Source: Halobellus inordinatus (GTDB lineage Archaea > Halobacteriota > Halobacteria > Halobacteriales > Haloferacaceae). Taken from it: 64,000 nucleotides of DNA. Positions within the stretch are counted from its first letter, which is position 1; each line of letters starts with the position of its first letter. Of this stretch, positions 31,204 through 62,020 are shown one piece after another. The translations under genes and the position numbers were made by a program. A model generated the notes under the pieces. That model was not told the DNA's origin, made no database searches, and was given only the letters and a program-made list of their open reading frames with translations. The DNA is taken from the NCBI RefSeq assembly GCF_024464655.1, contig NZ_JANHAV010000007.1, positions 1 to 64,000 on the forward strand, written 5' to 3'.

Positions 31204-31625
31204 GAGATCCATACGCTGCTTGTGGGCGGTAGCGAGGCTGCTCGCACGCAGTAGACTCTTTAACTCGGATCGTATCGAGGCTGGCTATAGTAGCGTTTGC
31301 ACGTCTTCACGCACCTAACCGCACGCAGTCGTGCGATTGGCTGCTTACTCAGTTGTAAACGCTACTATAGAATCGGATCGGGTCGGATTCGCGTTCGACC
31401 GGCCTCGAATCGCCGCGCCGTGGCCTCTATGTGCGAATACTTCTCATCCCAAATTCTGGGGTACTGAGGGCGACAGTATACACAAGACTTTTACTCGTTT
31501 CGCTAAATTCCAAAATACGGTCACGGGACGACGCCTCGACGGGCGCGCGGGTAGGGGTACTTGGGCGAACGTCGACCGTCATCCCGATGGACATTTTTCG
31601 GACCTAACTCGAACAGCGGCGCGTC
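31204..31625. other. Non-coding interval with an element A copy
   Basis: Besides the palindromic element at 31285-31370, the interval holds only short frames without family resemblance. The stretch after 31440 is somewhat A/T-richer (CTTTTACTCGTTTCGCTAAATTCC) and may be decayed sequence. Confidence 0.4.
31285..31370 (+). mobile_element. Palindromic element A, copy 2 (reference, 86 bp)
   Basis: This copy has the cleanest ends: CTATAGTAGCGTTTGCA at the left and TGTAAACGCTACTATAG at the right, a 17-bp inverted repeat with one mismatch. Inside, GCACG and CGTGC form a second short stem. It encodes nothing. Size, ends and repetition fit a MITE-like non-autonomous element or a REP-type palindrome. 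Confidence 0.8.
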
Positions 31626-42302: not shown

Positions 42303-42336
42303 CCTCGACCAGCAGCCGCGTTCGGCCGCCGTCTCA

Positions 42337-42412
42337 TAGATTATCGTCACTGTTCGGAGAGTCTCGCTGTACCGTCCGGCGAGACATCTATGCGGACGTA
42401 CGATAATCTCTA
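42337..42412 (+). mobile_element. Palindromic element B, copy 1 (76 bp)
   Basis: The left end TAGATTATCGT and right end ACGATAATCTCTA mirror each other, and the interior pairs as well (GAGAGTCTCGCTG with the CCGGCGAGACATC side). Flanks are TCA on the left and TCT on the right, a nearly matched 3-bp duplication. Its last three bases, CTA, are the TAG stop codon of the leftward gene that ends at 42410. Confidence 0.75.
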
Positions 42413-43867
42413 TCTGTCTCTGTAGTTCCCGCGCCCGACTTCGAGTTCGCCCGACGTCACGTACCAGCCCCGGCCCGGACCGAGCAGTTCGACGCTCGTC
42501 CGGTCGCGGTACTCGTTGCCCGTCCAGCCGCCGGAGAACCACTCGTTCCGCCCGGAAAGCTCCGTCGAGACGTAGACTGTCGCGTTCGGCGTGGTGTCGT
42601 ATGTGGCGTACACGCGACTGTCGTACTCGTAGCATCGGTGCCGCTCTGCGTCCGTTCCAAAGCGGCACTCGACGGCGGTCCGGTCGTACTGCGGCGTGAT
42701 GATCGGAGCCGTTCCCAGCGGGTCGGCCGTCTCGATCCGCTCCTCGCTTCTGAGCGTCACCGTGAACGTGAACGACCCGTCGTCGCGGACGCCCATCGCC
42801 GGGTCCGTGGGGTCGTATTCGTCGGGGCTGATCCGCTCGCGCCAACCCATCGTCTCGTTTTCGACGACTCGGTAGTAGACGCGAGAGACGTCGATCCGGT
42901 CGGCCGAAATCGCGATCATCGGCCCGTGCTCGGTCTCGACGCGCTCGTAGGTGAAGTTCACCGGCGTCGGGTCGGGGTCGTAGCCCCGGAGCGCCGGAAC
43001 GTCCCGCTCGTAGCGTGCGTTCTGGAGGAACTGTGCTGTGAGCTCTGTGTCGCCGTCGTCTGTCGGCATCGGGACGTACACCGTCGCGTTTTCGAGAGAT
43101 CGATCCGTCGAGAGCGTGACACGGTACTCGTAGGTGCTTTCGGAGGACTGCTCGACGCGCTGCTGGCCGAGGACCGAGAGGCCGAAGAGCAAGAGTCCGA
43201 AGACGAGTACGACCACGAGAACCCCGATTCCGACCGCGCGCCAGTTGATCGTCTCCTCGGGGCCGCGAACCAGATACCGGTAGCCGAGTACGGCGGCCGA
43301 GGCGCCGGCGACCGCCCCGATCGGGAGCGCGACGAGCAGCGAAGGCCAGACGAGCGGATCCAAAACGACCGTGAGCGAGATCGTGACCGCGAGGAAGGCG
43401 GCGACTCCCGCGGTCAGACCGCCGGCGATCGCCCTCCACGAGGGAGATTGCCCGGCGTCTGCTCCGGCTACTGTGTGACTGCCACTGGGGGCCGACGCGC
43501 GGCCGTCGGCGAGGAGCGCTCCGAGTGCGCCACCGACGCCGGCGACGAGTATCTGTCCGATGGTCGCTGCGAGCGAGAGGAGCGCGGCGATGCCCAACGA
43601 TCGCAGTGGGCCGCCGCCAACCGGGAACTCTCCAAAGCGAAGGGCCAGGACGACGCCCGTGATCAGTGTGCTCACCGCTGCAATCACGATGCCGGCGACC
43701 GCACCGGCGAGCGCGCCGCGCTTCGGCCCCTTGCGTTCGAGGTAGCCGGCGACGCCGCCACCGAGCAGCGGCGCGACCAACAGTACCAACGGGACGAATC
43801 CGAGTGCGCTGCCGACGACGCCGCCGAGCACCCCGTTTCGGAGCGTCGACGCTGTCCGCTCCTGCAT
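42410..43867 (-). CDS. Polytopic membrane protein with large extracellular domain
   Basis: The 485-residue protein has a glycine-rich N-terminal membrane region with about six helices (residues 10-130 and 145-240) of the haloarchaeal DUF5518-like type. A C-terminal extracellular domain of about 240 residues carries several N-glycosylation sequons. It could be an envelope sensor or structural protein; no enzyme motif is seen. The stop codon lies in the end of element B, so the last residues (NYRDR) may differ from those of relatives. Confidence 0.75.
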   Translation of the reverse strand: MQERTASTLRNGVLGGVVGSALGFVPLVLLVAPLLGGGVAGYLERKGPKRGALAGAVAGIVIAAVSTLITGVVLALRFGEFPVGGGPLRSLGIAALLSLAATIGQILVAGVGGALGALLADGRASAPSGSHTVAGADAGQSPSWRAIAGGLTAGVAAFLAVTISLTVVLDPLVWPSLLVALPIGAVAGASAAVLGYRYLVRGPEETINWRAVGIGVLVVVLVFGLLLFGLSVLGQQRVEQSSESTYEYRVTLSTDRSLENATVYVPMPTDDGDTELTAQFLQNARYERDVPALRGYDPDPTPVNFTYERVETEHGPMIAISADRIDVSRVYYRVVENETMGWRERISPDEYDPTDPAMGVRDDGSFTFTVTLRSEERIETADPLGTAPIITPQYDRTAVECRFGTDAERHRCYEYDSRVYATYDTTPNATVYVSTELSGRNEWFSGGWTGNEYRDRTSVELLGPGRGWYVTSGELEVGRGNYRDR

Positions 43868-48568: not shown

Positions 48569-48946
48569 ATGGAGGAGCGCTACGTCGATCAGTTTCTGTC
48601 ACGACCAGTCGAGACTGTCACTCCGGACACGCCACTCGCCGAAGCCGCAGCGACGTTGATCGAACACGACATCGGCGCGGTCGTCGTGGTGAACGATATG
48701 GGCCAGTTCGTGGGCCTCCTCACGGCGACTGACTTCGTCGCGCTCGCCAGGGAGGAAGCGCCCGCGGCTGAGGCGACCGTCGCGGAGTGGATGCGGACCG
48801 ACGTGATCACGACGACGCGACAGACCCCCATCAGCGACGTTGCCGACACGATGATCGAGCATCTGATTCACCACGTCCCAGTCGTCGACGGCGATGAGGT
48901 CGTCGGGATCATCACTACGCTCGACCTGACCGCGTCGCTACGGTAG
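48569..48946 (+). CDS. CBS-pair protein
   Basis: The 125-residue protein is a single Bateman module with two CBS motifs (residues 6-57 and 68-123), each ending VGLLTATDFV or VGIITTLDL. Such stand-alone pairs sense AMP, ADP, ATP or other adenosyl ligands. Its last codons and TAG stop fall in the left end of palindromic element A copy 3, so the present C-terminus may have been set by that insertion. Confidence 0.88.
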   Translation: MEERYVDQFLSRPVETVTPDTPLAEAAATLIEHDIGAVVVVNDMGQFVGLLTATDFVALAREEAPAAEATVAEWMRTDVITTTRQTPISDVADTMIEHLIHHVPVVDGDEVVGIITTLDLTASLR

Positions 48947-49023
48947 CGTGTGCACGCCTTCGTGCACCCGAGCGCCCGACAGCGTGTGATCGGGTGCGCA
49001 CTCAGTTGCAAATGCTACCATAG
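48938..49023 (+). mobile_element. Palindromic element A, copy 3 (86 bp)
   Basis: The ends are CTACGGTAGCGTGTGCACG and GTTGCAAATGCTACCATAG, with the family interior (GCCTTCGTGCACC, ACTCAGTTGC). At 86 bp it equals copies 2, 5 (after subtraction) and 6. It overlaps the last nine bases of the CBS-pair gene. Confidence 0.75.
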
Positions 49024-55920: not shown

Positions 55921-56227
55921 TCTGTGGTCGATACGCAGTTGTGGCCGATACGCGTGTGTCGCAGTAGCGACCACCGAGAGCACCTGTGCTGCCGTGTAAG
56001 TCGGATATACTGTTCCCTTCGACGGCAGCTACGGTGCGTCAGCAACGCCTACTCTACAGGGCTCGTGAGTAACAGTTGCCTTCAACCCGGTCTGGGCGAC
56101 TCTATAGAGCATTTGCAACTGATTGCGCACTCGATCGCACGACAGGGTGTGATCGGATGCGTGAAGACTTGCAAATGCTACTATAGCGTTGCTAACAATG
56201 TAGCTCCGTTGTGTCAGTTCGAACGCT
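55921..56227. other. Non-coding interval with element A copy 4
   Basis: The interval is free of plausible genes. Apart from the element at 56102-56186 it holds only the promoter region of the following SnoaL-like gene. Confidence 0.45.
56102..56186 (-). mobile_element. Palindromic element A, copy 4 (85 bp, reversed)
   Basis: Ends are CTATAGAGCATTTGCAA and TTGCAAATGCTACTATAG. The GTGAAGAC block lies at the right, so the copy is reversed relative to copies 1-3 and 5. It ends 41 bases before the ATG of the SnoaL-like gene and could affect its promoter. Confidence 0.78.
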
Positions 56228-59241: not shown

Positions 59242-59319
59242 TAGGGATTATCGTCACTGTTCGTAGATTCTCGCCGTCCCGTCCGGCGAGAAATCTATGG
59301 AGACTTACGATAATCCCTA
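59242..59319 (+). mobile_element. Palindromic element B, copy 2 (78 bp)
   Basis: Perfect 13-bp inverted ends (TAGGGATTATCGT and ACGATAATCCCTA) bracket an interior that also pairs (TAGATTCTCGCCG with CGGCGAGAAATCTA). TTA occurs directly on both sides, a 3-bp target duplication. It lies upstream of the leftward aminotransferase gene. Confidence 0.85.
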
Positions 59320-60733: not shown

Positions 60734-61078
60734 TCATTTGAACGAGACCCCGACGTCGGTCGCACGCGTCTCCTGTGGGGAAATCGTGACCTGTATCTGA
60801 TCGATCGGACACGCGTACTGGTGCGGGTGTTTGCCGTCGGTGGAAAATTGGACCGCCTCCTCCAGGAGCGGCACCGCGCTGAGCTGATCGAGTTTGCGAT
60901 AGACGGTCGAGAGTGGAAGATTCAATCGTTCGGACAGTTCACGTGCGGTCAACGACTGCTCGGACGTCGAGGCGAGTATCGCTCGACACTTCGGATCGCT
61001 CAGCGCGGTGAGTGCCTCCTGCGTCTGTTCGTCGACGTCGCCAAATTCCACTGTCGACTCCGCTGACTTCGGAACCAT
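60734..61078 (-). CDS. Winged-helix transcription regulator
   Basis: The 114-residue protein has an ArsR/MarR-like winged helix (ALSDPKCRAILASTSEQSLTA then PLSTVYRKLDQLS), followed by a beta strand end (YACPIDQIQVTISPQET). It directly precedes the phosphoribosyltransferase on the same strand with a small gap, so it probably controls that operon and itself. No metal-binding cysteine pair is seen. TATA-like TTTATAG lies about 30 bases upstream. Confidence 0.87.
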   Translation of the reverse strand: MVPKSAESTVEFGDVDEQTQEALTALSDPKCRAILASTSEQSLTARELSERLNLPLSTVYRKLDQLSAVPLLEEAVQFSTDGKHPHQYACPIDQIQVTISPQETRATDVGVSFK

Positions 61079-61165: not shown

Positions 61166-61332
61166 CTATGGTAGCGTTTGCACGTCTTCACTCACCTAAT
61201 CGCACGCAGTCGTGCGATTGGCTGTGTAATCATAGGGACTATCGTACGTCCTCATAGATTTCTCGCCGGACGGGACGGCGAGACTCTCCGAACAGTGACG
61301 ATAATCCCTATCAGTTGCAAACGCTACAATAG
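61166..61332 (+). mobile_element. Palindromic element A, copy 5, interrupted by element B
   Basis: Left end CTATGGTAGCGTTTGCACG and right end CAGTTGCAAACGCTACAATAG belong to family A. They are separated by an inserted family B element (61233-61310). Subtracting 78 bases of B and one 3-base TCA duplication from 167 leaves 86, exactly the length of intact family A copies. Confidence 0.85.
61233..61310 (-). mobile_element. Palindromic element B, copy 3 (78 bp), nested in element A
   Basis: Ends are TAGGGACTATCGT and ACGATAATCCCTA-type repeats, flanked on both sides by TCA (61230-61232 and 61311-61313). The orientation is opposite to copy 2 as judged by the GGACGGGACGG interior. The exact duplication shows that B inserted by a transposition-like event after A was already in place. 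Confidence 0.88.
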
Positions 61333-61456: not shown

Positions 61457-61542
61457 CTGTAGTAGCATTTGCAACCGATTGCACACCGGACCACACGCTG
61501 TCGTGCGAGCGGGTGCGTGAAGACGTGCAAATGCTACTAAAG
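61457..61542 (-). mobile_element. Palindromic element A, copy 6 (86 bp, reversed)
   Basis: Ends are CTGTAGTAGCATTTGCAA and GTGCAAATGCTACTAAAG; the GTGCGTGAAGACG block lies at the right, so the copy is reversed. It starts 124 bases after copy 5 and ends 26 bases before the 3' end of the Hsp20 gene. Confidence 0.78.
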
Positions 61543-61567: not shown

Positions 61568-62020
61568 CTACTCTTCTTCGATGTCTATCGTGCGGGCTTC
61601 TTCGATTTCGAGTTTCGGGAGTGTGACCGTCAGCACGCCGTTTTTCATCCGCGCGCTTACGTTCTCCTTGTCGATATCGTCGGGTAGTCGGATCGATCGG
61701 TGCATCGACTGCTGGCGTCGCTCGTGCCGGAGGTACTGCTCTTCTTCTTTCTCGACGTCAGATTCGCGCTCGGCTTCGATCCGGAGCGTGTGATCTGTCA
61801 CCTGAAGGCTGACGTCGTCTCGCTCGAACCCTGGGAGATCGACGGTGACGAGGAATTCGTCGTCGTGCTCGACGAGGTCGAGCGCCATCGATTCGAACTC
61901 CGTGGACCATCGGCTGAGCGGCCCCTCGGACTCCCAGATCCGAGACGAGTTGTCGAACTGTCTACTCATCCGCTCGAACAGGCGTTCGAGCTCTTCGAAT
62001 GGGTTACTGCGTGCGCTCAT
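61568..62020 (-). CDS. Hsp20/alpha-crystallin family chaperone
   Basis: The 150-residue protein has a typical N-terminus (RSNPFEELERLFERMSRQFD) and an alpha-crystallin domain (about 45-140). Its blocks are FLVTVDLPGFERDDVSLQV, RSIRLPDDIDKENVSARMK and NGVLTVTLPKLE, and the end is Glu-rich. It is a small heat-shock holdase. An A/T-rich tract with GATTATTTGC about 50 bases upstream of the start is the likely promoter. The 3' end faces two palindromic elements. Confidence 0.93.
   Translation of the reverse strand: MSARSNPFEELERLFERMSRQFDNSSRIWESEGPLSRWSTEFESMALDLVEHDDEFLVTVDLPGFERDDVSLQVTDHTLRIEAERESDVEKEEEQYLRHERRQQSMHRSIRLPDDIDKENVSARMKNGVLTVTLPKLEIEEARTIDIEEE

Follow-up and report, generated by a model that had tools for sequence, protein, structure and literature searches.

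A 78-bp element with terminal inverted repeats transposed into a second miniature element in Halobellus

In one intergenic gap of a Halobellus genome (Haloferacaceae, 3.41 Mb), a short repeat appears to interrupt another short repeat, and the question arises as to whether transposition produced this arrangement. The window analyzed here, a stretch of 64,000 nucleotides, carries the composite at 61166-61332, between a small helix-turn-helix gene (60734-61078, minus strand) and a gene for an Hsp20 protein (61568-62020, minus strand). The left part (61166-61232, plus strand, ending in TGTAATCA) and the right part (61311-61332, plus strand, TCAGTTGCAAACGCTACAATAG) belong to a family called A. Between them lies a 78-bp element of family B (61233-61310, minus strand), which runs from TAGGGACTATCGT to ACGATAATCCCTA, has the terminal repeats TAGGGACTATCGT and TAGGGATTATCGT, and is reversed relative to the consensus orientation. 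The triplet TCA closes the left part of A (61230-61232) and opens the right part (61311-61313), so that the window sequence bears out the original prediction of a B copy within an A copy with TCA on either side. The accompanying arithmetic (167 - 78 - 3 = 86) is also correct: joining the A flanks with a single TCA retained restores an 84-bp A, from TATG to AATA, which is the length of intact copies. That B transposed into A, as first observed, is strongly supported.

The interrupted element A is palindromic, 84 bp long with TATA ends, and a second, uninterrupted copy is found in the same gap (61460-61539). Elsewhere in the window, an intact copy lies at 31285-31370 (plus strand, 76 bp between CTATA and TATAG), and further copies at 48938-49023 and 56102-56186. 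Most A copies have TATA on either side, consistent with the TA duplication of IS630-type MITEs, and at C11:320717, where A is inserted into B, the insertion adds 82 bp, that is 80 plus TA. A is a MITE-like palindrome unrelated to B, with TA-type duplications. In a congener, a DDE_3 (IS630-type) locus (L380) has TAGTAG ends and TA on its flanks, which match only the outer six bases of A. Among plasmid records, B is barely present, whereas A occurs on plasmids of Halobellus, Haloferax, Halorubrum and Haloplanus; it is numerous on NZ_CP039140.1 (Haloferax mediterranei, 27 places) and NZ_CP134947.1 (Halobellus, 12 places).

B is a real mobile family. All three copies in the window are bordered by an exact 3-bp duplication: TCA for the nested copy, TTA for a copy at 59242-59319 (plus strand), whose identical flanks had been pointed out beforehand, and TCT for a copy at 42335-42412 (plus strand). 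Matches to the B terminal repeat number 6 in the window against 0.6 in shuffled sequences, and 161 genome-wide against none for the reversed control, corresponding to about 80 elements. We read 67 copies in all from loci and stretches of this genome, and 59 of them have an exact in-register duplication of 3 bp. When the register was shifted, none was found at -4 to -1, +1 and +3, two at +2 and one at +4; the 8 of 67 copies lacking the exact duplication count against transposition. Among the 59 duplications, TCA (25) and TGA (24) predominate, followed by TTA (3), TAA (2) and five singletons, in agreement with the TNA type proposed for B, and the target logo is itself palindromic, (A/T)CT(C/G)AG(A/T). 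Beyond its 78 bp, too short for a transposase, B shares with MITEs its 13-bp terminal repeats, a duplication of fixed length, and dispersal in some 80 copies with both paralogous and orthologous empty sites. Rfam contains no match at curated level (best score 24 bits for a cut-off of 50), and a literature search returned nothing for the end sequences of A or B.

Two other arrangements were encountered. At C22:130773 and C19:181920, B abuts A directly and is not nested; at the latter, the B copy has no 3-bp duplication, and TATA/TAG is present instead. In genome G386 (L215, 1355-1514), two B-like elements stand back to back with TGA triplets in common, apparently a tandem insertion.

Empty sites were found both within this genome and in a relative. 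The motif TAATCAG, a paralogous empty site, is present in 16 of the 27 intact A copies, and the remaining ones mostly differ only in the bases preceding TCAG, which supports the entry of B into a pre-existing A. In Halobellus sp. Atlit-31R, the gap orthologous to that of the window measures about 152 bp, as against about 440 bp here, and contains neither A nor B; around this locus, identity to the nearest genome is about 80%, and the Atlit-31R gap is too diverged to represent a base-exact empty site. At several other loci, the Atlit-31R orthologues are devoid of B, and the clearest case is C11:318857, where the Atlit-31R flank continues up to a single target triplet. The in-register duplications and the empty sites strongly support that B has moved. 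The contrary outcome named in the original prediction, a 167-bp unit that is invariant, was sought and not seen, given the Atlit-31R gap and the fact that most A copies of the same genome are empty.

B is present at the identical base of five A copies: the one in the window (C21:61166), C16:311127, C16:442167, C19:130748 and C1:42629. Such a coincidence might reflect a 167-bp composite of A and B behaving as one mobile unit, with B inserted only once and the transposase of A then copying the whole, and the two C16 copies indeed have the same B orientation and some B variants in common. However, relative to A, B is reversed in two of the five composites and direct in three. Moreover, the A parts, 75 to 94% identical to one another, fall in different A subfamilies having unnested members (those of C19:130748 and C1:42629 come from other subfamilies, and are 75 to 81% identical to the other three). 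In every composite, the copy most similar to its B is unnested, and unnested close relatives exist for the A parts as well. The orientation and nearest-relative tests therefore lead us to reject a travelling composite, which we regard as very unlikely, in favor of mostly separate insertions of B. By sequence comparison, the nested copies probably represent five insertion events, and at least four, since at most the C16 pair could derive from a single one.

Family A constitutes roughly 0.1 to 0.15% of the genome, and some 80 B elements should give about 0.1 nested copies; the Poisson probability of the five observed is near 2e-7. The right arm of A holds (A/C)TCAGT, which fits the B target and would therefore explain that B landed there repeatedly. 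ATCAG is the insertion site in four of the five nested copies and in only one other insertion, so that A attracts more insertions than would be predicted from the pentamer by itself. The palindrome, the extended context AATCAGT, or simple neutrality are candidate reasons.

Nesting is also reciprocal: at C11:320717 and C19:54764, A lies inside B, at the same TA of B (L084, 1501-1660; L040, about 1478-1630). In the congener G006 (C1:1243100-1245200; L158, 1030-1106), the other arm of an A copy holds a diverged B-like element with TGA on either side, a nesting in another species and at a different A site.

TGA and TCA, the commonest B duplications, each correspond to a stop codon on one strand or the other. 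Using a codon-position heuristic to call placement, we assigned 21 of the 54 non-nested B copies precisely to the stop codon terminating a coding-like frame; the other 33 also fall outside genes, and no copy was called inside one. Sequence-matched target sites would be expected to lie within genes in 41% of cases, and the probability of 0 in 54 is about 3e-13. Stop codons account for 39% of the non-coding B copies, compared to 23% in the control (p = 0.009), a share that simple tolerance may explain in this genome because the non-coding class of the control includes missed genes. Duplicated B copies are on stop codons in 7 of 7 cases in Atlit-31R and 16 of 25 in other genomes, these samples being small and non-independent. 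A literature search found nothing tying such elements to stop codons. At such a site, the duplicated TGA would restore the stop, and B itself would provide a second one, as it begins with TAG. In the window, the terminal TAG of the copy at 42335-42412 is in frame with a minus-strand ORF (42410-43867, DUF5518 domain) and ends it; the insertion may therefore have altered the end of that gene.

Could A and B instead be palindromes maintained by the host, such as REP-like or regulatory hairpins, and spread by recombination? The strong hairpin (z of -8.6) and the many copies placed directly at stop codons are in line with this, as is the pattern in Atlit-31R, where the core of B is better conserved than its ends (3.4% divergence in the inner 42 bp, 15% at the ends), the opposite of what is seen in the window genome. 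A scan of 800 kb revealed no B copies with a decayed core that the first search had overlooked. However, the exact in-register duplications, the palindromic target and the paralogous empty sites are typical signs of transposition, and we consider host maintenance as the origin of these families hardly credible. It is possible, judging from the sequences, that some B copies, once transposed, are retained as hairpins after genes.

The explanation we hold as very probable is therefore that B is mobilized in trans, that its target is palindromic and cut so as to yield a 3-bp duplication, that it landed in A repeatedly, and that it persists at harmless sites. Its ends, its duplications, its empty sites and the independence of the nested copies can all be read in the DNA; the type of transposase and its cutting chemistry are what we infer. 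A transposase acting in trans, assumed because no autonomous partner was found, would recognize the terminal repeat TAGGGATTATCGT(A) and cut (A/T)CT(C/G)AG(A/T) with a stagger of 3 nucleotides, the repair of which would generate the duplication. Insertions would then persist between genes, inside other elements, and precisely on stop codons.

As to the partner, we found no full-length element bounded by B ends in this genome, 16 congeners, 392 Halobacteriales genomes, or one complete genome with young B-type copies. In the latter, where five copies are near-identical, such ends delimit miniatures or occur singly, and no longer element has them. The pattern TAGGGATTMTCGTA is present in 45 of the 392 Halobacteriales genomes, and the relatives fetched, from several haloarchaeal families, are 77 to 109 bp long and share these ends and, in most cases, the 3-bp duplications. 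None of them contains a transposase. A 99-bp relative, showing TCA duplications in a CTCAG target, is also present in Natronorubrum texcoconense. The B family is therefore widely distributed, with miniatures as its only form in this sample. At L219, two B-like ends separated by 858 bp were judged a chance occurrence, one end being poor, and the end pattern in virus contigs also looked like chance, as no paired haloarchaeal-like ends were present.

The IS1031 group of IS5 makes a 3-bp TNA target duplication, and the original prediction had likened B to it on this basis. B does make such duplications, but this is the only likeness, one common to other groups too: no transposase or full-length element is tied to B, and no match to IS1031 ends was found here. 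In this genome, neither B nor A ends occur at the five DDE_Tnp_1 loci. Other ends also delimit the DDE_Tnp_1 elements that were read in two genomes containing B-type copies; a third genome of this kind yielded a single DDE_Tnp_1 match, and DDE_Tnp_4 is absent from the 17 genomes sampled in the genus. At the IS4/IS5-type loci examined, the ends are others than those of B, and no IS5-type DDE transposase lies between matching ends. These searches and the inspection of ends having given nothing, the proposed link is unsupported. An IS5-family transposase of the IS1031 group (or a PIF/Harbinger-like one) is possible but doubtful as the mobilizing enzyme; it would in any case be a choice of partner within trans-mobilization, and no true alternative to it.

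Comparable elements are described in Haloquadratum walsbyi. The MITEs of the HqIRS families sometimes have no functional partner transposase in the genome (PMC3119063). Like B, they are short, non-coding and multicopy, with terminal inverted repeats and target duplications, and they often reside within other mobile elements; unlike B, for which no such relation was found, their ends are related to those of known transposons (PMC3119063). Another difference from the HqIRS MITEs is that the nested target here is a MITE-like palindrome struck at one exact base. The small mobile repeats SMR-A of H. walsbyi, about 110 bp long, resemble B in having terminal inverted repeats unrelated to known transposons and in entering the palindromes of other elements, but they lack a target duplication, whereas B has an exact one of 3 bp (PMC3119063).

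The locus is thus part of a natural record in which transposition in a halophilic archaeon has left clean traces several times over, with ends, target and duplication all readable, and it defines a miniature family across several haloarchaeal families, seen here only as miniatures. A broader proposal, which we think unlikely to hold as a whole, is that of a haloarchaea-wide miniature family whose CT(G/C)AG target and 3-bp duplication would make stop codons safe sites, and some of whose old copies may be hairpins kept by the host. The present observations suggest how an element may multiply in a gene-dense genome, by settling harmlessly at stop codons and in other elements.
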